From NCBI RefSeq assembly GCF_023015805.1, contig NZ_JALKBA010000004.1:186001-250000 (forward strand): DNA of 64,000 bases, given 5' to 3'. Each line of letters starts with the position of its first letter. The first letter of the stretch is position 1. The notes below the pieces were generated by a model that made no database searches, was not told where the DNA came from, and saw nothing but the letters and a program-made list of their open reading frames with translations. Origin of the DNA: Cellulophaga sp. F20128 (lineage in GTDB: Bacteria; Bacteroidota; Bacteroidia; Flavobacteriales; Flavobacteriaceae). Below, one piece after another: positions 23,959-52,998 of the stretch. Both the position numbers and the translations under genes were made by a program.

Positions 23959-26175
23959 CTATTTTTTTTTAAAGCAATATAGGGTCTCTTTTACGGTAAA
24001 CCAACAGAAGTAAAAAATACCGACAGAGAATATGGTATCACCCACCATACGAAGCCATTTTAAAGTTTGTATTGTTGGGGAATACAACAAATCAGAATCT
24101 CTAGCAAACGAATATCCTTGTGTGATGGACGTGTATGCCTGTATAATTCCTATAGGCAACATGCTTAGTAAAACCATAGCAACCAATCCAATGTTTAAAA
24201 ACCAAAAGGCTCTTTTTAGTTTGGTGCTGTTCCACTTTCTGTCCGAGTAAAAACGCAAACAAATAATAATGAACCCCATGCCTAACATACCATAAACACC
24301 AAATAAGGCTGTATGGGCATGCACGGCAGTAGTATTTAGACCTTGTATGTAATACAATGCAATAGGAGGGTTAATTAAGAAACCAAAAACTCCTGCGCCA
24401 ACAAAGTTCCAAAATGCTACAGCAATAAAGAAAAATATAGGCCATTTGTATTTCTGTATCCAATCTTTACTTTTTAATAAATTCCAATGTTCTCTAATTT
24501 CAAATCCCATTAATGTTAGTGGTACCACCTCTAGTGCACTAAAAGTAGCTCCTAAAGCGATTGCTTGTACTGGTGTCCCAGAATAATATAAGTGGTGTAA
24601 GGTGCCTATAATACCTCCTGCTAAGAATATCGTGGCAGAGGCAATAGATACTCTTCCCGCTGTTTTTGTAGAAATAATTTTCATTCTAGCGAATATAAAT
24701 GCAATAACTACAGTAGCAAAAACCTCAAAAAAACCTTCAACCCATAGGTGAACTAGCCACCATCTCCAATAATTAATAACAGGCAAACTACTATTTTCAC
24801 CATACATTAATCCAGAAAAGAAGAACATACCAATTGCAATTACAGACAAAAGTAATATGATCAATAAGTGCTTAGATTCATCATTCTTCTTAATGGCAAA
24901 CAGAATATGTCTACTGACCATAACTACCCAGAGCACAAGTCCAATTCCTAAGAAAATCTGCCAAAACCGACCTAAATCCATATACTCGTATCCTTGGTGG
25001 CCAAAGAAAAAATTGGTTGTTAGATCTAAAAACTGATGAACACCAAGCCATTCTCCTAACATAGAACCTAGAACAATAACCAATAAGGCAACAAACAAGA
25101 AGTTTGTACCAAATACTTGGTATTTCATCTCTTTTCCTGAAATCATAGGAGCCAAAAATAATCCCGTGGCTAGCCAGGTTGCAGCAATCCAAAATACAGC
25201 CAATTGTGTATGCCAGGTTCTGGTAATTGAATAGGGTAAAAAGCTAGATAAATCATATCCAAAAAAAGCTTGACCTTCCACCGTATAATGTACCGTTATG
25301 ATTCCTAAAATAACTTGCAATGCAATTAAGAAACAAATTATTAAATAGTATTTTAAAACGGCTTTTTGTGATTTAGACATTATTAATCCCGTCAACGGAT
25401 CACTATCGGGTTTGGTAACCGATTCTCCTTTTTCGTGATTTCTTAAGTAATAATAGGTAAGAATCCCAATAAATAGGAGCAACAATACAATAGATAAACC
25501 CGACCAAATAAGCGAGTCGTCCGTAATTTCATTATCTATTAATGGCTCATGAGGCCAGTTAGAGGTATAGGTATAGTCTTTACCAGGCCTGTTGGTACTA
25601 GCGGCCCATGAGGTCCAAAAGAAAAAAGCATTCAACTGCTTTAGCTTAGCTTCGTCGGTTAAGGCGCCTACAGGAATGGCATACCGCTCATTACCATTGG
25701 CAAAAATGCCACTGTAGTGTATTATATTTTGTTGAATTGCCGCAACACGAGCCTTAGAAATGGTAATGGTCCTTGTTTCTGGGTTGTAGGAGTCGGTTTT
25801 TATATCTTTAATTAAACGTGCTTTTAAGGCTGCCTTTTTTTCTACATCCAAACTGGCATAATTGGTATTAAAGTCTTCTTGAGCCCAATGTTCTAGCAAG
25901 TACACAGCTTCTTTGTGTATCCAATCGGCTGTCCAGTCTGGCGCTACGTAACTTCCATGTCCCCAAATGGAGCCAACTTCCATACCGCCAATAGATTCCC
26001 AAACATTTTGTCCTATTTGTATATCTGCTTTGCTGTAAAACACTTCTCCTGTTTCTTTTACAACTACCTGATCGGGTAGTGGGGGTTGCGTCTGATAAAT
26101 CTCTGTTCCAATCCATATGAGGACTATAAAAGACAGTGTAACCACACTTGTAAAGGCGATCCAAATTTTTCTCAT
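23959..26175 (-). CDS. norB: Quinol-dependent nitric oxide reductase (qNOR)
   Basis: It reduces two NO to N2O using quinol in the inner membrane. 738 residues: an N-terminal helix, a roughly 200-residue periplasmic cytochrome-c-like domain without heme motif (GQNVWESIGGMEVGSIWGHGSYVAPDW), then twelve helices. Active-site features: HTQLAVFWIAATWL, VHLWVEGFFEVFATV (FeB-site Glu residues typical of NORs), LHHLYYSGTP, and the two heme ligands in the VHAHTALFGVYG segment. It follows a cupin gene by 31 bp; upstream lies an Rrf2 regulator on the same strand. The absence of norC fits the quinol type. Confidence 0.96.
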   Translation of the reverse strand: MRKIWIAFTSVVTLSFIVLIWIGTEIYQTQPPLPDQVVVKETGEVFYSKADIQIGQNVWESIGGMEVGSIWGHGSYVAPDWTADWIHKEAVYLLEHWAQEDFNTNYASLDVEKKAALKARLIKDIKTDSYNPETRTITISKARVAAIQQNIIHYSGIFANGNERYAIPVGALTDEAKLKQLNAFFFWTSWAASTNRPGKDYTYTSNWPHEPLIDNEITDDSLIWSGLSIVLLLLFIGILTYYYLRNHEKGESVTKPDSDPLTGLIMSKSQKAVLKYYLIICFLIALQVILGIITVHYTVEGQAFFGYDLSSFLPYSITRTWHTQLAVFWIAATWLATGLFLAPMISGKEMKYQVFGTNFLFVALLVIVLGSMLGEWLGVHQFLDLTTNFFFGHQGYEYMDLGRFWQIFLGIGLVLWVVMVSRHILFAIKKNDESKHLLIILLLSVIAIGMFFFSGLMYGENSSLPVINYWRWWLVHLWVEGFFEVFATVVIAFIFARMKIISTKTAGRVSIASATIFLAGGIIGTLHHLYYSGTPVQAIALGATFSALEVVPLTLMGFEIREHWNLLKSKDWIQKYKWPIFFFIAVAFWNFVGAGVFGFLINPPIALYYIQGLNTTAVHAHTALFGVYGMLGMGFIIICLRFYSDRKWNSTKLKRAFWFLNIGLVAMVLLSMLPIGIIQAYTSITQGYSFARDSDLLYSPTIQTLKWLRMVGDTIFSVGIFYFCWFTVKETLYCFKKK

Positions 26176-26206: not shown

Positions 26207-26548
26207 TTAATTGTTTACTACTTTTTGTACTCTATCTATAGAATCGGTCTTAGAAATAGACAGTCTAATTATGGCATCTGCTTTGCATACTAGATCATGG
26301 GGTACATTACTGCCTAGACTTATTAAATCGCCTTTTGTTAAATGTAGAATGGCACCGTTAACCCCAAACTCTATTTCGCCTTCAAACAATTCAACCACAA
26401 TAGGGTGGGGTGCTTTGTGCTCTTTCATAACTTGATCTTTGCGCATCAATATTCGAATCTCTTTGCTTACTTCTGTTTCCATAAGGAGTTGTAAGGAAGG
26501 TTTGTCTTCTTTGTAAATTTTGTCATTTGTTAAGGAAGCTGTTTTCAT
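26207..26548 (-). CDS. Small cupin-domain protein next to norB
   Basis: A 113-residue single cupin. HKAPHPIVVELFEGEIEF provides the first cupin motif and LGSNVPHDLVCKADAIIRL the second; one His and one Glu could bind a metal, so the site would be incomplete compared with enzymes. It is probably cotranscribed with norB. A perfect GGATAA-N10-TTATCC palindrome lies about 36 bp upstream of its start. Function in NO metabolism is inferred only from position. Confidence 0.85.
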   Translation of the reverse strand: MKTASLTNDKIYKEDKPSLQLLMETEVSKEIRILMRKDQVMKEHKAPHPIVVELFEGEIEFGVNGAILHLTKGDLISLGSNVPHDLVCKADAIIRLSISKTDSIDRVQKVVNN

Positions 26549-26623: not shown

Positions 26624-27058
26624 TTATAATTTAAGATGAAATAAATCAGAATCCATATCCTTAACAACAATAGCAAGGGTGTTGGTTTCTAACATCTGTT
26701 TTAGATCGTCTCTGATTTTAATGAATTTAAAATGAAGAGGGCAGGGTTCTTTTTCGTTACATTGTTGCAAGCCCAAGCCACAGCCAGTATAGATGGCATC
26801 ACCATCTAGGACAGCGACAATATCACTTAATTTTATAGTAGACAAGGCCTCTATTTCTATAAAAAACCCACCATATGGTCCTTTAGAAGACTGCACCAGA
26901 CCACTTTTTGTCAATTGTTGTAAAATCTTAGCCGTAAATGCTTGGGGTGAATCAATTGAATCAGCAATTGTCGTTAAACTAACCTTAGTATTAACTGTAG
27001 ATTGTTGCGCAATAAAGAGTACTGCCCTAAGTCCGTATTCGCAAGATTTTGAAAACAT
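26624..27058 (-). CDS. Rrf2 family regulator with Fe-S cysteines (NsrR-like), first copy
   Basis: A 144-residue winged-helix regulator. DNA-binding part: MFSKSCEYGLRAVLFIAQQ and DSPQAFTAKILQQLTKSGLV...SKGPYGGF. The cluster-binding loop is TGCGLGLQQCNEKEPCPLH, a CX6CX5C arrangement that suits an NO-sensitive Fe-S cluster as in NsrR. It lies just before the cupin and qNOR genes, so NO sensing is the natural reading. It is roughly half identical to the regulator at 46825. Its promoter carries a pseudo-palindrome shared with that paralogue. Confidence 0.93.
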   Translation of the reverse strand: MFSKSCEYGLRAVLFIAQQSTVNTKVSLTTIADSIDSPQAFTAKILQQLTKSGLVQSSKGPYGGFFIEIEALSTIKLSDIVAVLDGDAIYTGCGLGLQQCNEKEPCPLHFKFIKIRDDLKQMLETNTLAIVVKDMDSDLFHLKL

Positions 27059-27076
27059 ACACTATATTTATACAGG

Positions 27077-27115
27077 CAAAATTAAAACATATTTTAATAA
27101 CGGACAAGTTTATCC
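27077..27115 (-). promoter_or_regulatory. Promoter of the first Rrf2 gene with overlapping operator
   Basis: Minus strand: -7 TAATTTTG (27084-27077) and a -33 TTG (27107-27105) 20 bp upstream. The -33 lies inside GGATAAACTTGTCCG (27115-27101), nearly the same sequence and same placement as at 46765-46780. Consensus of the two: CGGAYAANNTTRTCCG. Confidence 0.75.
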
Positions 27116-27130
27116 TTTATTAATTGTAAC

Positions 27131-46764: not shown

Positions 46765-46804
46765 CGGATAATTTTGTCCGAATAAATATTATAACCTACT
46801 TTTG
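46765..46804 (+). promoter_or_regulatory. Promoter of the second Rrf2 gene with overlapping operator
   Basis: Operator-like CGGATAATTTTGTCCG (46765-46780) contains the -33 TTTTG; the -7 TACTTTTG is at 46797-46804, 20 bp away. Same sequence logic and same spacing as the promoter at 27077-27115. Confidence 0.8.
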
Positions 46805-46824
46805 TCTCAAATAGAAGGATCATT

Positions 46825-47259
46825 ATGTTTTCAAAAAGTTGTGAATACGGAATAAAAGCCACACTCTTCATTGCTCAAAAATCGCAACAAGGCGAAAGGG
46901 TACCCTTGAAGGAAATTGCGGCTGCCATTGATTCTCCTATAGCATTTACAGCAAAAATTTTACAAATCCTGGCCAAGGCTAATATTGTAGATTCTACCAA
47001 GGGACCTAATGGAGGTTTTGAAATTGAAGAAGTACGGCTACCTAATATAACTTTAAAGCAGATTGTACAGGCTATTGACGGGGATGGAGTATTTGAAGGT
47101 TGCGCCTTAGGGTTAAGTATATGTAATGCCAATGAACCTTGTCCAATGCACAATCAATTTGTAATCATACGGAACCAATTGAACGAGACCTTATCCTCTT
47201 CAAATCTGTTAAATGTTGCTATGGACTTGAATTTAGGACTCACTGTTCTTAAACGATAG
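46825..47259 (+). CDS. Rrf2 family regulator with Fe-S cysteines (NsrR-like), second copy
   Basis: A 144-residue paralogue of the regulator at 26624: same MFSKSCEYG start, DSPIAFTAKILQIL, KGPNGGFEIEE, and the cluster loop GCALGLSICNANEPCPMH (CX6CX5C). It stands directly before an operon for a cbb3-like oxidase subunit, a truncated hemoglobin and Fe-S repair proteins, so sensing of NO or nitrosative damage is the natural reading. It is separated from the oxidase gene by 49 bp. Confidence 0.93.
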   Translation: MFSKSCEYGIKATLFIAQKSQQGERVPLKEIAAAIDSPIAFTAKILQILAKANIVDSTKGPNGGFEIEEVRLPNITLKQIVQAIDGDGVFEGCALGLSICNANEPCPMHNQFVIIRNQLNETLSSSNLLNVAMDLNLGLTVLKR

Positions 47260-47281
47260 AAAAAAAAATTAATTAATTAAA

Positions 47282-47303
47282 GGATAAAAAGATCTTAATA
47301 TCT
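47282..47303 (+). promoter_or_regulatory. Imperfect GGATAA palindrome before the oxidase-like gene
   Basis: GGATAAAAAG at 47282-47291 repeats the first ten bases of the minus-strand palindrome at 26605-26584; the right arm, ATATCT at the same N10 spacing, is degenerate. Possible second operator within the operon. Confidence 0.35.
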
Positions 47304-47308
47304 ACAGT

Positions 47309-49090
47309 ATGAATGTTTATCACTTACTTAGTTTTCAAATCAAAGTCTTAAATTCAGAAAATTGGCTTTCTAGCCCTGGTGTAATTGGGACCTTTATTCT
47401 TGCTTTTATAGTATTGTTTTTAGGGATATTTATTCTTATAAAACGACTCAATGGCTATGTAGACCTATTGAAAAAAAATACTAAAAATTTAGCGGAAGAA
47501 GAGTTTCAAAGGCGACTTATAAATCTTGATGAAAAACAAGTTGATGCCATTCTAAACCAACGAAAACAAGGTTTTAAAGGAGAAGAAAAGCAGACAGCTC
47601 TTTTAACTAAAACGGTTAAGAACAGTGGCTTTATAAAAAAAATTATAGATCCTAAGAATCCCCTTTTTGATGAAAAGACAAAGTCCACCATTACAATAAA
47701 AATCTCGAATGAATTAAAGGAAATAATTGTCTGGTATCTGGGAGCAGCAGTATTTTGGTTGGTTTTTGGCACCCTCGTAGGACAATATATCGGCATGAAG
47801 TTTATATGGCCCGAAATGGACAGTATTAGTTGGTTATCCTTTGGAAGGTTACGTCCTGTCCATACCAATACCGTATTTTGGGGGTGGGCTTCGCTAGCTA
47901 TGATAGGCTTGGGACATTATGTGGTAGCAAGAACATCAAATCGGGAAATTTTCAGTTACAAACGATCAAAGATTGCCTTTTGGCTACTTAACCTAAGTGT
48001 TGTTTTGGGCAACCTTTTTTTAATGGCTGGAGTCAATAATGGGGGCGGGGAGTATCGAGAATATATTTGGCCAATTATGTTCTTATTTGCTATTGGCCTG
48101 CTAATAACATTTTTCAATTTCTACAAAACGGTTGCAACCCGAAAAATTTCAGAAATTTATATCTCTAATTGGTTTATCCTAGCATCTCTTATTTGGACCA
48201 TTGTACTCACCGTAATTGGTTACTTCCCAGATTATCAGAATGGCTTGGGAGAAACCGTAATCCAAGGGTATTACATGCACCAAGGCGTAGGCATGTGGTT
48301 TATGACCTTTACCTTAGGGCTTGTTTATTATTTTCTACCTTCAACCCTTAACAAACCTATTTATTCCTATTCCTTGGGCGTACTTGCATTCTGGACGCAA
48401 ATGCTATTTTATACACTTATAGGAACGCACCATTTTGTGTTTAGTCCGTTGCCTTGGTGGTTACAAACTGTTGCCATTGTTTTTAGTGCAGGAATGTTTA
48501 TTCCAGTATTTGCCGGTAGCACCAATTTTTTGATGACCATGCGTGGCAGCTGGAACCACATTTCAAAAAGCTATGTGCTTCCTTTCTTTTTAGTGGGGGT
48601 TGTTTTTTACTTTGTTGGTTCTGTACAAGGAAGTTTTCAGGCGTTTAGGTACACCAATTACCTATGGCATTTTACGGATTTTAATGTGGCACATTCACAC
48701 ATGACCATGTATGGCATTATCACCTTTTTAATGTGGGGATGTATGTATGCCATCCTTCCAAAAATAACAGGCAATGAGCCATCGCAAAATCTAGTAGGGA
48801 GCCATTTTTGGCTTGCCTTCATTGGACTAATAGCATATATGGTTTCGTTGATGGCTGGCGGTACTTTAAAAGGATTAAGTTGGATAGAAGGAAACCCCTT
48901 TATAGAATCTGTTATTCTGATGAAAAACTATTGGGTATGGCGTGCCGTTGGAGGGTCGCTTATGTTTATATCACATCTCATTTTTGGATATAATTTCTAC
49001 CTGATGGTACGTAAGAAAAATGAAATGCTACTCCCGCTTTCTGATGATTCCGTTTTAGAAAAGCAAAACTTACATACACAATCAAATTAA
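47309..49090 (+). CDS. cbb3-like heme-copper oxidase catalytic subunit (CcoN-like), NO-locus type
   Basis: A 593-residue membrane protein. An N-terminal extension of about 130 residues (one helix plus a charged segment) precedes the twelve-helix core. Ligands: low-spin heme His185 (RLRPVHTNTVFWG), CuB-type His324 (YYMHQGVGMW), His374-His375 (GTHHFVFSPLPWW), and His462/His464 (VAHSHMTMYG). Tyr368 sits exactly 44 residues after His324, where the cbb3 cross-linked Tyr is found, so oxygen reduction is plausible; NO reduction cannot be excluded given the setting. Bacteroidota usually carry a CcoN-CcoO fusion, so this is a separate type. Confidence 0.85.
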   Translation: MNVYHLLSFQIKVLNSENWLSSPGVIGTFILAFIVLFLGIFILIKRLNGYVDLLKKNTKNLAEEEFQRRLINLDEKQVDAILNQRKQGFKGEEKQTALLTKTVKNSGFIKKIIDPKNPLFDEKTKSTITIKISNELKEIIVWYLGAAVFWLVFGTLVGQYIGMKFIWPEMDSISWLSFGRLRPVHTNTVFWGWASLAMIGLGHYVVARTSNREIFSYKRSKIAFWLLNLSVVLGNLFLMAGVNNGGGEYREYIWPIMFLFAIGLLITFFNFYKTVATRKISEIYISNWFILASLIWTIVLTVIGYFPDYQNGLGETVIQGYYMHQGVGMWFMTFTLGLVYYFLPSTLNKPIYSYSLGVLAFWTQMLFYTLIGTHHFVFSPLPWWLQTVAIVFSAGMFIPVFAGSTNFLMTMRGSWNHISKSYVLPFFLVGVVFYFVGSVQGSFQAFRYTNYLWHFTDFNVAHSHMTMYGIITFLMWGCMYAILPKITGNEPSQNLVGSHFWLAFIGLIAYMVSLMAGGTLKGLSWIEGNPFIESVILMKNYWVWRAVGGSLMFISHLIFGYNFYLMVRKKNEMLLPLSDDSVLEKQNLHTQSN

Positions 49091-49100
49091 TTGTTCGCAA

Positions 49101-50105
49101 ATGTTAAACTTACATAAAGACCATAAAAACCTCGTGCTTCTTGCTTTTAGTGTTTTCGTTGTACTAAGCATTGGAGTGGCAATTTTACCTGCATATCAAA
49201 TGCAAGAATACCAACCCATACCTGGACAAAAAGATTTAACAGTTTCCGAAAGAAAAGGATTGGAAATCTATATTTCGGAAGGTTGCGTTGCCTGTCATAC
49301 CCAACAAGTCCGAAATATAGAAATGGATAAAACTTGGGGCGAGAGACCATCGTTAGCGTCGGATTATTACTATAGCAAACAGCGTATGGATGTGTGGAGG
49401 CAATCGCCCTCCCTATTAGGAAGTGAACGGACAGGACCCGACTTAACTAATATTGGGAATAGACAACCCAGTGACCAGTGGCATTTGTTACACCTCTACA
49501 ATCCACGGTTGGTTGTAGAAGCTTCCATAATGCCACAATACTCTTGGTTATTCGAAAAAATAGATACTTTATACCTTGCTGATGATGCGGTAACCTTAGC
49601 CCGAGGTATAACAAAAATGGAGGGTAGAGAAGTCCTAGTAGCAACTCAAGATGCCTTGCACCTGGTAGCCTATTTAAAAAGTTTACAGCAATTTTCTTTT
49701 GAAAATGCAACTCCATCAGATTTTATCCCTGCCTTGCCCAAAGAACAAGGAGACAATGCAAGTGTAATACCAGCAAATAAAACGAAGGGAGCTAGTCTGT
49801 ATCAAAATAACTGTGCAGCTTGTCACCAAAGTAATGGTCGTGGTGTAAAAGGTGCATTTCCACCACTTGCAGGAAGCCTTATTGTAAACGCTAAAAACCC
49901 AGAAACACTTATAAAAATTGTATTGATGGGCTATGATGCACGGGCAGAATATGGAGTTATGCCAGAATTTGCCGACAAACTAACCGACGAGGAAATTAAA
50001 GCCATTCTAGACCACGAACGAACGAACTGGGGCAACCGCGCACCAGAAGTACCCGTAGCAACTATTACACACTTAAGAGATTCAATATCAAAATTAAGCC
50101 AATGA
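49101..50105 (+). CDS. Fused CcoO-type and class I cytochrome c protein
   Basis: A 334-residue membrane-anchored diheme cytochrome. One N-terminal helix (about 10-30), a CcoO-like domain with heme motif C62-H66 (EGCVACHTQQVR), family landmarks GPDLTNIGNR, and Met ligand in ASIMPQYSWLF; then a second cytochrome c domain with C238-H242 (NCAACHQSNG), PPLAGS and Met in YGVMPEF. Ordinary CcoO has about 200 residues and one heme, with CcoP separate; here both roles seem joined. It lies 10 bp after the CcoN-like gene and overlaps the next by 4 bp. Confidence 0.88.
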   Translation: MLNLHKDHKNLVLLAFSVFVVLSIGVAILPAYQMQEYQPIPGQKDLTVSERKGLEIYISEGCVACHTQQVRNIEMDKTWGERPSLASDYYYSKQRMDVWRQSPSLLGSERTGPDLTNIGNRQPSDQWHLLHLYNPRLVVEASIMPQYSWLFEKIDTLYLADDAVTLARGITKMEGREVLVATQDALHLVAYLKSLQQFSFENATPSDFIPALPKEQGDNASVIPANKTKGASLYQNNCAACHQSNGRGVKGAFPPLAGSLIVNAKNPETLIKIVLMGYDARAEYGVMPEFADKLTDEEIKAILDHERTNWGNRAPEVPVATITHLRDSISKLSQ

Positions 50106-50341
50106 TAACAATAGACTATTTAGACAGCTTATTCTGTAAAACACCTGCAGAAGGTAGAATGCTCGCATTTACAATGGCTAGAAAAACAATTGCAGCAATT
50201 CAATCCGATCCTGAAGTTCGTAAAGAATTACGGCCTCACTATGCCAAAGACACAGCACAATTAATTGCTTCGTCTCAAGTCGTGGCAATAGAGTTTCAAA
50301 CCATTGCTATGGCAAATAATTATTGGAGAGATGAAAAATAA
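50102..50341 (+). CDS. Small conserved-looking protein in the oxidase operon
   Basis: 79 residues, soluble and helical, no signal peptide or helix for the membrane. Not recognised. Its ATG overlaps the previous stop (ATGA) and it overlaps the following gene by 11 bp, so it is a translated member of the operon. An assembly factor is possible but nothing in the sequence shows it. Confidence 0.7.
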   Translation: MITIDYLDSLFCKTPAEGRMLAFTMARKTIAAIQSDPEVRKELRPHYAKDTAQLIASSQVVAIEFQTIAMANNYWRDEK

Positions 50342-50603
50342 AATTGCAACACTCCTCATCTTTTTAATAAGCGCGCTTGGTATGGCTTGTCCGTTGTGCG
50401 AAGCAAAACAGCCCAAAGGATTTGCGAATATTACTCATGGCGAAGGGCCTAATGGAGATATCGATTATATCATTATGTATTCAGCAATTGTCATTGTAGG
50501 ATATACCCTTATTATGAGTATAAAATATTTGGCCAGGCCAAAAGAAAAGGAAAAAAATCATATTAAAAATTTAGTTCTAGAAGAACATAATTGCATTGAC
50601 TAA
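50331..50603 (+). CDS. Small CxxC membrane protein in the oxidase operon
   Basis: 90 residues from the ATG at 50331. A signal-like helix ends in GMACPLCEAKQP, then a short outer segment with HGEGPNGD and a second helix (YIIMYSAIVIVGYTLIMSIKYL), finally a basic tail inside. The CxxC could hold a metal or form a disulphide but lacks the His of a heme site. Not recognised as a named family. Its stop shares a base with the next start (TAATG). Confidence 0.72.
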   Translation: MKNKIATLLIFLISALGMACPLCEAKQPKGFANITHGEGPNGDIDYIIMYSAIVIVGYTLIMSIKYLARPKEKEKNHIKNLVLEEHNCID

Positions 50604-51025
50604 TGGAAAATAAAAGAAAGGTAACTGTGTTTTTGGACGATGAAAAAGTCCCTTTTGGTGTTTTTGAGCCCCCTGCAAAATTAATCTTAGATACCACCAA
50701 AATTTCTGATGGAAAGCATACGCTTAAAATAAAAGCAGTTTCATCCAAAGGTATAGAAGGAGTGCGAGTAATTCCTTTTGAAGTACGAAACGGTCCAGAA
50801 ATAGCAGTAATAGGCTTAAAAGACAATGAAATTATAGAATCTAATACAGCCATTACAATTAATGCTTATGGTAGTGAGAGTTCTGAGTCATTTATAATTC
50901 GCGGTTCAGAAACACCAAAAGCCATTCCGTCATGGGTTTGGGCGTGTATTATAGCCTTTGTTGGTTTTGCTATATTCTACCTTATAACGCACTGGACAAT
51001 GAACACTTATAAATCTTTTTTTTAA
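50603..51025 (+). CDS. Beta-sandwich protein with C-terminal membrane helix
   Basis: 140 residues: an Ig-like domain of beta strands (FEPPAKLILDTTKISDGKHTL, IKAVSSKGIEGVRVIPFEVRNG), a Ser-rich linker, and one helix near the end (PSWVWACIIAFVGFAIFYLI). No heme motif. Not recognised; position recalls the small accessory subunits (FixH/CcoQ-like roles) of cbb3 operons, but the sequence is unlike them. Overlaps the preceding gene by 1 bp and precedes the hemoglobin by 1 bp. Confidence 0.72.
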   Translation: MENKRKVTVFLDDEKVPFGVFEPPAKLILDTTKISDGKHTLKIKAVSSKGIEGVRVIPFEVRNGPEIAVIGLKDNEIIESNTAITINAYGSESSESFIIRGSETPKAIPSWVWACIIAFVGFAIFYLITHWTMNTYKSFF

Positions 51026-51026
51026 T

Positions 51027-51386
51027 ATGAATGATATAACAAATAGAAAAGACATTGAATTAATGGTAGACACCTTTTATGGGGCAATACGCCAAGACGA
51101 ACTTTTAGGGCCTATATTTAACAACGTCATTCAGGACAATTGGCCAAAGCACCTTGACACCATGTACCGCTTTTGGCAAACCGTTCTTTTCCATGAATTT
51201 GCATATAAAGGTTCTCCTTTTATTCCGCACATGAATTTACCCATACAAGCTCATCATTTTGACCGGTGGGTATATCATTTTAATACCGCAATAGACAAAA
51301 ACTTTAGCGGTAAAATAACGGAAGAAGCCAAATGGAGGGCTCAAAAAATAGCAGAAATGTTCATGCACAAATTAAATATTTCATAG
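51027..51386 (+). CDS. Group III truncated hemoglobin
   Basis: A 119-residue 2-on-2 globin. Landmarks: IELMVDTFYGAIRQDELLGPIF, FWQTVLFHEFAYKG, and proximal His in AHHFDRWVYHF. Group III members are linked to NO and peroxide handling in bacteria. Cytoplasmic. It lies 1 bp after the beta-sandwich gene in the Rrf2-led operon, which supports NO detoxification. Confidence 0.94.
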   Translation: MNDITNRKDIELMVDTFYGAIRQDELLGPIFNNVIQDNWPKHLDTMYRFWQTVLFHEFAYKGSPFIPHMNLPIQAHHFDRWVYHFNTAIDKNFSGKITEEAKWRAQKIAEMFMHKLNIS

Positions 51387-51454
51387 TGTATATCCATAAA
51401 AGTAGCAATCCTGATTATACCCATAAAAGTGAAAACAATTAAAACCTAAAGCCT

Positions 51455-51904
51455 ATGTCATTTACACAACGTATCAATATCACCATTCCCGTTTTATGGC
51501 TGGGTTTTGTGCTTTCCATTTCATTTATGGAAGCATGGCTAAAATTTCAAGCAGAAGGTGTTACCCAAATTATTGGCTTAAATATAGGCCAACTTGTCTT
51601 TGGTTCTTTAAACAAGGTAGAATTGTTTTTTATGACAATCTTACTCGTTTCAAACCTTAAAACAAAGTGGTTTAAAAGACACAGGTCCCTTAGAATTCTA
51701 GGAATCGCATTGCTTGTTATCTTACTAGCACAGACCTTCTATTTTCTTCCAGTACTTGACCAACGAGCAACACTAATTATTAACGGAAAGGTTCCTTCTG
51801 CATCCTATTTTCATTACTACTATGTTTTTTTAGAATTTTTAAAAGTTATCCTCCTCCTTGTTTTTTCACACCAAAGCATCACAACCTATATAAGACAACC
51901 TTAA
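51455..51904 (+). CDS. Four-helix membrane protein in the NO-type operon
   Basis: 149 residues with four predicted helices (about 10-30, 50-68, 80-100, 118-140) and short loops; FHYYYVFLEFLKVILLLVF is the last. Not recognised. It is 68 bp after the hemoglobin and 13 bp before the DUF59 gene on the same strand, so it belongs to the operon. Confidence 0.75.
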   Translation: MSFTQRINITIPVLWLGFVLSISFMEAWLKFQAEGVTQIIGLNIGQLVFGSLNKVELFFMTILLVSNLKTKWFKRHRSLRILGIALLVILLAQTFYFLPVLDQRATLIINGKVPSASYFHYYYVFLEFLKVILLLVFSHQSITTYIRQP

Positions 51905-51917
51905 TCCAAAGTACGCC

Positions 51918-52229
51918 ATGGAAAACTCAGAAAAAGAAAACCAAATTATTGAACAGATAAAAATGGTATATGATCCTGAAATCCCAGTCAATGTTTACGA
52001 TTTGGGACTCATTTATGAATGTAAAATTCTTCCCGAGAATTGTGTTGAAATTTTAATGACCTTAACCTCACCGTCTTGTGCTATGGCAGGAATGATAGTA
52101 GATGAAGTACGTGAACGTATATCAGAACTCCATTTTGTAAAAGAAACAAAAGTAGAATTAACTTGGGACCCACCATGGGACAAACTATTAATGAGTGACG
52201 AAGCATTGCTAGAACTTGGATTTATGTAA
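51918..52229 (+). CDS. DUF59/MIP18-type Fe-S assembly factor
   Basis: A 103-residue protein of the SufT/PaaD/MIP18 family: YDPEIPVNVYDLGLIYECKI, LTSPSCAMAGMIVDEVRERI and LTWDPPWDKLLMSDEA. These proteins help mature Fe-S proteins; the conserved Cys lies in SPSCAM. It stands 16 bp before ric, pairing cluster assembly with cluster repair after nitrosative damage. Confidence 0.92.
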   Translation: MENSEKENQIIEQIKMVYDPEIPVNVYDLGLIYECKILPENCVEILMTLTSPSCAMAGMIVDEVRERISELHFVKETKVELTWDPPWDKLLMSDEALLELGFM

Positions 52230-52245
52230 CCTAAAAAATAAAATT

Positions 52246-52998
52246 ATGAATATCACATCTAAAAGTATCATTGGTAATATTGTTGGTCTCAATTATAAAA
52301 CAGCTGAAATATTTAAAAAATATGCCTTAGACTTTTGTTGCGGCGGTCAACAGTCTATTGAAGAGGCCTGTACTTCAAATGGACTTTCTATGGCTACCAT
52401 TGAAGCTATAGTACAAGAACTAATTAATTGCCTTGAAGAAAACAAAGAAAAGCAGAATAGAACTTATGGCAGCTGGCCCTTAGACAAACTTACAGATCAT
52501 ATAGAGGTAATACATCACTCTTATGTAGAAGCAAAGATTCCCATTATAAAGGCACATTTAAACAAAATAGAAGAGGTTCACGGTAATGATCATCCAGAAC
52601 TTGTAGAAATTAATTCTATTTTTACAGATGCAGCAGGGCAATTAGCTATGCATATGAAAAAGGAAGAGCTTATTTTGTTTCCCTATATTCGGAAGCTTGC
52701 TAAAGCTAAAAGGGAATTTAGCAAATTAGTAAAACCTCATTTTGGTACCATAAAAAATCCCATACAACAAATGGAAGAAGAACATAACTTTGAAGGGGAA
52801 GCTTTTAAAAAAATAGGATTGCTATCTCATAATTATGTAGTTCCAAAAGATGGTTGTACTACTTATAGCGTTACTTTTGGTCTCCTAAAAGAATTTGAAG
52901 AGGACCTTAACTTACATATCCACAAAGAGAATAATATATTATTTCCAAGAGCCATTGCCTTGGAAGAAGAAATACAAACTACAAACCACACCTCTTAA
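52246..52998 (+). CDS. ric: Iron-sulfur cluster repair di-iron protein (RIC/ScdA/YtfE)
   Basis: A 250-residue hemerythrin-like protein that repairs Fe-S clusters damaged by NO or peroxide. N-terminal ScdA domain with IVGLNYKTAEIFKKYALDFC and CCGG; di-iron ligands in HIEVIHHSYVEAKIP, AMHMKKEELILFPYIR, MEEEHNFEGEAF and HIHKENNILFPRAI. The start at 52246 is preferred to one 30 bp upstream that overlaps the DUF59 gene. It closes the operon that begins at the Rrf2 gene. Confidence 0.95.
   Translation: MNITSKSIIGNIVGLNYKTAEIFKKYALDFCCGGQQSIEEACTSNGLSMATIEAIVQELINCLEENKEKQNRTYGSWPLDKLTDHIEVIHHSYVEAKIPIIKAHLNKIEEVHGNDHPELVEINSIFTDAAGQLAMHMKKEELILFPYIRKLAKAKREFSKLVKPHFGTIKNPIQQMEEEHNFEGEAFKKIGLLSHNYVVPKDGCTTYSVTFGLLKEFEEDLNLHIHKENNILFPRAIALEEEIQTTNHTS

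Follow-up and report, generated by a model that had tools for sequence, protein, structure and literature searches.

The operon and its genome setting

The stretch of DNA analysed here, called the window, is 64,000 nt of contig NZ_JALKBA010000004.1 of Cellulophaga sp. F20128, and all coordinates are window positions. Profile searches with Pfam and NCBIfam models place ten same-strand genes at 46825-52998 in one operon. In order, they encode an Rrf2-family regulator, a CcoN-like catalytic subunit of 593 aa, a CcoO-cytochrome c fusion, HTHP, the small proteins u99 and u140, a truncated hemoglobin, the membrane protein u149, a DUF59/SufT-like protein, and the iron-sulfur (Fe-S) cluster repair protein RIC (Table 1). 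The 593-aa subunit belongs to a distinct clade of C-family heme-copper enzymes, outside ordinary CcoN and outside the nitric oxide (NO) reductases (NORs) cNOR and qNOR. The link of the operon to NO is strong, and the clade may represent a nitric oxide reductase of Bacteroidota that has so far gone unrecognised.

An earlier description made from the letters alone (the sequence-only reading) had proposed an Rrf2-led operon with a heme-copper subunit, a fused CcoO-cytochrome c, a group III truncated hemoglobin, DUF59 and RIC proteins, and a qNOR elsewhere in the window. The searches recovered all of these. For the globin, the group III protein 2ig3 was the only PDB match at E 0.01. The same reading held that CcoP, CcoG, CcoI and CcoS are lacking. 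Neither these four nor CcoH is encoded in the operon; u140 looks CcoP-like (see below), and the statement is only partly right for CcoP.

The genome comprises 4.17 Mb in 114 contigs and has four places that match PF00115, namely aa3, the canonical CcoNO, the clade CcoN and qNOR. The canonical cbb3 cluster, on another contig, contains the genes for CcoI, CcoS, CcoNO, CcoP, CcoG and CcoH and a small gene where that of CcoQ is expected, so the assembly factors missing from the clade operon exist in the genome. NirK, SUMF1 and a second RIC are its neighbours. Between qNOR and its Rrf2 gene, at 26207-26548, a cupin-like protein of 113 aa is encoded whose family recurs near clade operons (27 of 89 loci).

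Table 1. Features of the window, with the number of surveyed loci (of 92) at which each operon gene was found
Feature	Position	Strand	Loci of 92	Evidence
Candidate Rrf2 operator ATCGGATAATTTTGTCCGAA	46763-46782	+		20-bp dyad from dyad enumeration; 60 bp 5' of the Rrf2 gene
Rrf2-family regulator, 144 aa, Cys triad CX6CX5C	46825-47259	+	65	PF02082 E 5.1e-21
CcoN-like catalytic subunit, 593 aa, new clade	47309-49090	+	92	COX1 PF00115 E 6.7e-85; residues; trees
CcoO with second cytochrome c domain, two CxxCH	49101-50105	+	91	PF02433 E 5.7e-33; PF00034/PF13442; alignment of 13
HTHP	50102-50341	+	33	PF11534 E 2.9e-32, 111.3 bits (cut-off 25); PDB 2oyy
u99, small membrane protein, one transmembrane helix; candidate core subunit	50331-50603	+	90	Alignment
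u140, immunoglobulin-like (Ig-like) domain and one transmembrane helix; CcoP-like without heme domain	50603-51025	+	87	CcoP comparison; model
Group III truncated hemoglobin	51027-51386	+	58	PF01152; PDB 2ig3 E 6.3e-14
u149, four-helix membrane protein	51455-51904	+	34	Model, predicted local distance difference test (pLDDT) 91
DUF59/SufT-like Fe-S assembly protein	51918-52229	+	7	PF01883 E 1.3e-13
RIC, di-iron Fe-S cluster repair protein	52216-52998	+	42	TIGR03652 211.9 bits (cut-off 204.7)
qNOR, outside the operon, likely same regulon	23959-26175	-		PF00115; operator in common
Rrf2 paralog of the qNOR operon	26624-27058	-		PF02082 E 2.5e-24
Second operator, 5' of the qNOR-linked Rrf2 gene	27101-27116	-		1 mismatch

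The catalytic clade and its partner subunits

The best PDB matches of the 593-aa subunit are CcoN chains (e.g., 9g6b and 3mk7), and its score against the NCBIfam ccoN equivalog is 257.5 bits, below the cut-off of 583.15. Matches of at least 50% identity were found in 9 of 296 genomes of a phylum sample, the window's own included, and the next best match had 36%. In a sample of relatives, 6 of 149 genomes gave a match at E 1e-120; at this threshold there was none in the other 17 genomes of the same genus. Among named genomes, at least 392 stretches encode some relative according to tblastn, at a loose limit that does not imply clade membership for each of them. The best 80 of these were retained (58-84% identity), and their titles, read by hand, give Bacteroidota groups or no group below that.

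The separation of the clade was seen in two trees, both quick IQ-TREE runs with support from the Shimodaira-Hasegawa-like approximate likelihood ratio test (SH-aLRT) only. The first tree has 73 rows. The clade accounts for 37 of them (the window, 27 of the 80 retained loci and nine further rows), and a branch with SH-aLRT 100 sets these apart from ordinary CcoN (the genome's own CcoNO, Rhizobium FixN and Variovorax CcoN) and from cNOR and qNOR. The NOR rows are on a side of their own, again with SH-aLRT 100, and the clade does not group with NorB. When the NORs, qNOR included, the longest branches and five further rows were left out in the second tree, the clade split persisted with 35 rows and SH-aLRT 100. 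The position inside ordinary CcoN that the sequence-only reading had named as evidence against itself was found in neither tree. A second C-family group of nine rows is also well supported (L014, L015, L017, L019-L023 and L141, the last from Azoarcus sp. KH32C pAZKH). At its Azoarcus locus, genes for CcoN, CcoO, cytochrome c and SCO are present, and none is annotated as CcoP.

Residues were compared in P. stutzeri CcoN numbering. Alignment A4 leaves out L039, L040, L041 and L047. The six His ligands and the cbb3-type Tyr that the sequence-only reading had pointed out (Tyr251, helix VII) are invariant in 90 of 90 clade sequences. Other positions differ from ordinary CcoN. Position 203, four residues before the CuB His, is Gly in 90/90 clade sequences and Trp in 20/20 ordinary CcoN, position 206 is Met in 90/90 versus Gly in 18/20, position 240 is Gly in 90/90 versus Ser in 20/20, and position 247 is Gln in 89/90 versus Leu in 20/20. 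At positions 211 and 215, where 5/5 NORs have Glu, the clade has Gly (90/90) and Met (85/90) or Thr (5/90). A change of Glu323 to Gln was considered as a further signature and dropped, as Gln is also present in 8 of 20 ordinary CcoN.

Tryptophan four residues before the CuB His has a role in oxygen chemistry. Among 94 other heme-copper sequences examined, oxidases included, it is kept in 89 of the 92 that are readable at this place. The exceptions are a Sinorhizobium meliloti plasmid protein with Gly and two 480-aa proteins with Tyr. The former, a CcoN-like protein of pSymA (L146:3920-5359, CP140958.1), has a very long branch and falls outside the clade; the latter (L295 and L296, from G446 and G482) also have no Tyr at the usual B-type place. 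A literature search on the near-CuB tryptophan of the Paracoccus oxidase gave nothing useful.

The locus survey covered 92 loci on 89 distinct contigs, three contigs being reached twice. The operon core consists of CcoN, the CcoO-cytochrome c fusion, u99 and u140, and the other genes are accessories of varying frequency (Table 1). Since the partners recur with CcoN over the 92 loci, the gene association is not due to chance. Of the four small proteins listed as unknown in the sequence-only reading, one is HTHP (PDB 2oyy) and another, u140, looks like a CcoP remnant.

Alignment of u99 revealed a CxxC motif after a signal-like start and a conserved P-x-E-x4-HIK tail after the transmembrane helix; as a guess, this tail could replace CcoP as the entry point for protons. 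The u140 of five early-branching members (L045-L049) has 274-333 aa and a C-terminal cytochrome c domain, as seen by Pfam in two of them. Deep members have one CxxCH, and the window's group has no heme motif. The transmembrane region matches FixP_N weakly in one deep member (E 0.018, below the cut-off). A profile comparison of u140 with CcoP gave 97% over the transmembrane helix and cytochrome c, a value owed in large part to the cytochrome. The u140 model (pLDDT 71) consists of a beta sandwich plus a single long helix, and neither this model nor that of u149 had a fold match in the PDB at E 0.001. In our reading, u140 is a CcoP-like subunit that has gained an Ig-like domain and, in the window's lineage, lost its heme domain.

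Two further families were noticed around these loci. Membrane proteins of about 400 aa with a HAHSH motif, perhaps NnrS-like, recur beside nirK, RIC, nos and clade genes (L257:7255-8466, L260:14700-15917, L298:10645-11868 and L299:9366-10568). A 421-aa member of this set is COX1-like (L048:3856-5121, PF00115 E 1.2e-10). Tryptophan-dioxygenase-like proteins recur beside the clade operon or the cbb3 cluster at 10 of 89 loci, e.g., L139:16461-17363 (PF03301), L259:9184-10086, L298:6232-7164 and L300:9945-10856.

Regulation and co-occurrence with denitrification genes

The regulator had been called NsrR-like. The likely role and the Cys triad, CX6CX5C in 65 of 66 Rrf2 proteins compared, agree with this description; the family does not. 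The protein scores 17.9 bits against the NCBIfam NsrR model, far below the cut-off of 182, and the dyad of the operon is unlike the NsrR operator, gATGyAT-N5-ATrCATc (PMC1274295). The identification as NsrR was therefore rejected.

The 20-bp dyad TTCGGATAAATTTGTCCGAA lies about 60 bp 5' of the operon's Rrf2 genes. At least 14 of its 20 positions are matched in 47 of 83 upstream regions versus 31 of 1660 shuffled regions, with a seed derived from the same upstream regions in which it was counted. The window's copy, ATCGGATAATTTTGTCCGAA, contains a TAnnTTTG box similar to the -7 element found in promoters of Bacteroidota. When two mismatches are allowed, the core pattern occurs in 20 rows (18 places) of the window's genome. 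Sixteen of the 18 places are inside reading frames. The only two intergenic ones are 5' of the clade operon's Rrf2 gene (0 mismatches, 60 bp) and 5' of the qNOR-linked Rrf2 gene (1 mismatch, 43 bp), and the sequence pattern makes it likely that the clade operon and the qNOR operon are in the same regulon.

Across 22 genomes that carry the clade (carriers), 55 rows with up to one mismatch were found versus 35 in the control. They correspond to 53 places, 48 of which were examined. Twelve are 9-62 bp 5' of an Rrf2 gene, 26 fall within other reading frames, and 7 are in intergenic DNA ahead of other genes. Among the Rrf2 genes concerned are a qNOR-linked one (Algoriphagus antarcticus) and nirK-linked Rrf2-RIC pairs (two Bizionia). 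Single places were found before the clade CcoN (Bizionia myxarmorum), before RIC (Fulvivirga) and before the nos operon (Gramella sp. AN32). In one Aequorivita (G449, L261:2842-3807), two tandem Rrf2 genes precede the clade operon.

Denitrification genes were searched in 61 of 63 carrier handles (without L079 and L102; G324 and G457 are one genome). The genomes are drafts in which genes may be missed. NORs were sought with the window's qNOR at E 1e-20, and with PF00115 in 17 carriers and 10 non-carriers; other NO reductases and NirS lie outside the search. Of the 61 handles, 30 had NirK above the cut-off (29 of the 60 different genomes), versus 46 of 287 non-carriers (p 3.6e-7). The non-carrier phylum sample is taxonomically wider, so ecology accounts for part of this contrast. 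A qNOR or cNOR was present in 17 of the 61 handles. The idea that carriers lack NOR more often was tested and gave a null result, as NOR is absent from 17 of 29 NirK-positive carriers and 24 of 46 NirK-positive non-carriers (p 0.64).

A difference was found for NosZ. Among genomes with NirK and no NOR, it is above its cut-off in 16 of 17 carriers versus 10 of 24 non-carriers (p 0.00075), and the remaining carrier has a partial match. Aequorivita sp. CIP111184, Marixanthomonas spongiae, Bizionia myxarmorum and Arenibacter certesii are cultured carriers with this combination of NirK and NosZ and no NOR. The contrast persists in a hand count by genus (12/13 vs 5/15, p 0.002); a second Fisher test, whose outcome followed from its construction, was set aside. 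In genomes that have both NirK and NOR, the corresponding figures are 8/12 and 7/22 (p 0.075). Six of the 10 non-carriers with NirK and NosZ and no NOR (G008, G050, G058, G085, G155 and G242) have a B-type heme-copper enzyme without the Tyr, which we take to be eNOR-like; none was seen in the other four. Fourteen of the 17 NirK-positive, NOR-negative carriers have exactly three PF00115 places, assigned by score to aa3, the canonical CcoNO (partial in one) and the clade. The other three (G274, G446 and G482) have a further heme-copper enzyme without Tyr at the B-type position.

In several genomes the genes are neighbours. In Aequorivita sp. CIP111184 (L260, L261 and L302), a 30-kb region carries, in this order, nirK-SUMF1, the canonical cbb3 cluster, RIC, a hemerythrin-like gene, the clade operon, which has two Rrf2 genes, and nosZ. 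The clade operon is located between nirK and nosZ in one Aequorivita. In Marixanthomonas spongiae (L262 and L263), nirK, cbb3 and the clade share a 26-kb stretch, and nosZ follows 29 kb beyond. A stretch of 18 kb in Arenibacter certesii (L298) includes both the clade operon and nosZ. The distance from nirK to the clade operon is 8.5 kb in Cerina litoralis (L259), whose genome has qNOR. Overall, 4 of 17 NirK-positive, NOR-negative carriers have nirK or nosZ no more than 31 kb from the clade, compared with a chance level roughly estimated at about 3% per genome (p 0.0013).

A possible nitric oxide reductase or NO-tolerant oxidase

The sequence-only reading had left the choice between an NO-tolerant oxidase and a new NO reductase. 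Its link to NO stands, given the operator shared with qNOR and the gene neighbourhoods, and the choice itself is near balance. We regard the chances as even that the operon encodes an NO-responsive, cbb3-derived respiratory enzyme that reduces NO. The CcoO-cytochrome c fusion would accept electrons on its two hemes c and hand them on, via a low-spin heme b, to a heme/CuB centre that keeps the His-Tyr pair and has an altered CuB helix (Gly for Trp, Met for Gly). At this site, NO would be converted to N2O, perhaps with some oxygen use, and u140 and u99 would substitute for CcoP and CcoQ. An Fe-S Rrf2 repressor might occupy the operator over the promoter and be released when NO attacks its cluster, so that the clade enzyme, qNOR where present, RIC and the truncated hemoglobin would be expressed together. 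In Bacteroidota with NirK and NosZ and no known NOR, the clade enzyme could supply the NO to N2O step. Known cbb3 oxidases reduce NO at rates far below those of NORs (PMC8780969), so the step between the two roles would be short.

A wider proposal is advanced tentatively, at slightly less than even confidence. The clade would be a new NOR family that arose within the C-family, independently of cNOR/qNOR and the B-family NORs, and kept the His-Tyr site. It would provide the missing step of many Bacteroidota with NirK and NosZ that are counted as lacking nor, and its Rrf2 operator would be a new one, common to qNOR, nirK-linked and nos genes.

Several observations weigh against NO reduction. The Tyr of the His-Tyr pair is invariant in the clade and absent from the five cNOR/qNOR rows and from the eNOR-like B-type sequences found in this analysis. 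The clade stands among the oxygen reductases in the 73-row tree, and the NOR glutamates are absent from it. About half of the carrier handles (31 of 61) have no NirK above the cut-off. The equal lack of NOR in NirK-positive carriers and non-carriers speaks against simple replacement. The window's genome has qNOR and no NosZ match. Finally, the 20 operator rows in this genome compare with 27 in the reversed control, i.e., there is no overall excess of the operator at up to two mismatches.

Much of this suits the main alternative, a true terminal oxidase that tolerates NO. The regulator would shift respiration to this oxidase under NO stress while the truncated hemoglobin, RIC and qNOR remove NO and repair clusters. 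We consider it a serious possibility, though one that falls clearly short of even. Oxygen is favoured as substrate because of the invariant Tyr, kept together with the six His ligands, and the tree position in the C-family outside the NORs. The CcoO and CcoP-like partners, a genome already equipped with qNOR and the many carriers without NirK fit as well. NO is favoured because of the islands without another NO sink, the co-occurrence with NosZ and the reshaped CuB helix. If the enzyme were an oxidase, the NO step would be left empty in the NirK-positive, NOR-negative carriers, nearly all of which have NosZ, and in the nirK-clade-nosZ islands without another NOR candidate; the oxidase would also have lost a Trp that nearly all other readable sequences keep, oxidases included. 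The evidence for the two is close to even.

An assembly that detoxifies NO or peroxide through the hemoglobin and HTHP, with the membrane subunits serving just as electron suppliers, is improbable: both proteins are found at many loci (Table 1), but they are missing from many others where the four-gene core persists, and the membrane subunit keeps its catalytic ligands in 90 of 90 sequences. Least probable of all is an ordinary additional cbb3 oxidase whose company with NO genes is incidental. Despite clear CcoN and CcoO homology, the clade lies outside ordinary CcoN in two trees, scores far below the ccoN cut-off, has fixed CuB-helix changes, and possesses its own core gene set and an operator in common with qNOR.

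The question has consequences beyond this genome. According to a 2025 survey, which leaves the NO step open, 9% of the Bacteroidota genomes with denitrification genes have nir and nosZ without nor (PMC12569097). The clade is a concrete candidate for this step, with at least 80 named loci, and annotation as a cbb3 oxidase would conceal it. No paper describing the operon was found in the literature searched (open-licence papers only). If the enzyme reduces NO, N2O accounting and the number of origins of NO reductases change; if it is an NO-tolerant oxidase, it offers a natural design for respiration under NO. Moreover, the Trp to Gly change beside CuB is a natural case in which the role of a nearly constant residue can be tested, and the operator allows an NO regulon to be predicted directly in Bacteroidota.

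Compared with the cbb3 oxidase (CcoNOQP), the clade enzyme has the same CcoN fold with six His and Tyr, a CcoO and a CcoP-like partner. In contrast, it forms a separate clade with four replaced residues (Gly for Trp203, Met for Gly206, Gly for Ser240 and Gln for Leu247). Its operon encodes CcoO as a fusion with cytochrome c, contains neither a diheme CcoP nor CcoG, CcoH, CcoI or CcoS, and is under putative Rrf2 control. With the NsrR regulon it shares a Cys-triad Rrf2 protein before NO reductase, RIC and nirK-linked genes, whereas its regulator scores far below the NsrR cut-off and its operator differs from the NsrR motif (PMC1274295). The proposed reaction and the likely common regulon connect it to cNOR and qNOR, from which it differs by its place outside the NOR branch, the missing glutamates of positions 211 and 215, the Tyr that it keeps and the absence of visible NorQ or NorD genes in the operon. 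The other NOR families named in PMC11388526 (eNOR, sNOR, gNOR, nNOR and bNOR) belong to the B-family. Like them, the clade would be a NOR that descends from an oxygen reductase, but one of the C-family with its Tyr in place, whereas the eNOR-like proteins found in this analysis are without Tyr and have W..GH..QQ.N at the CuB helix.

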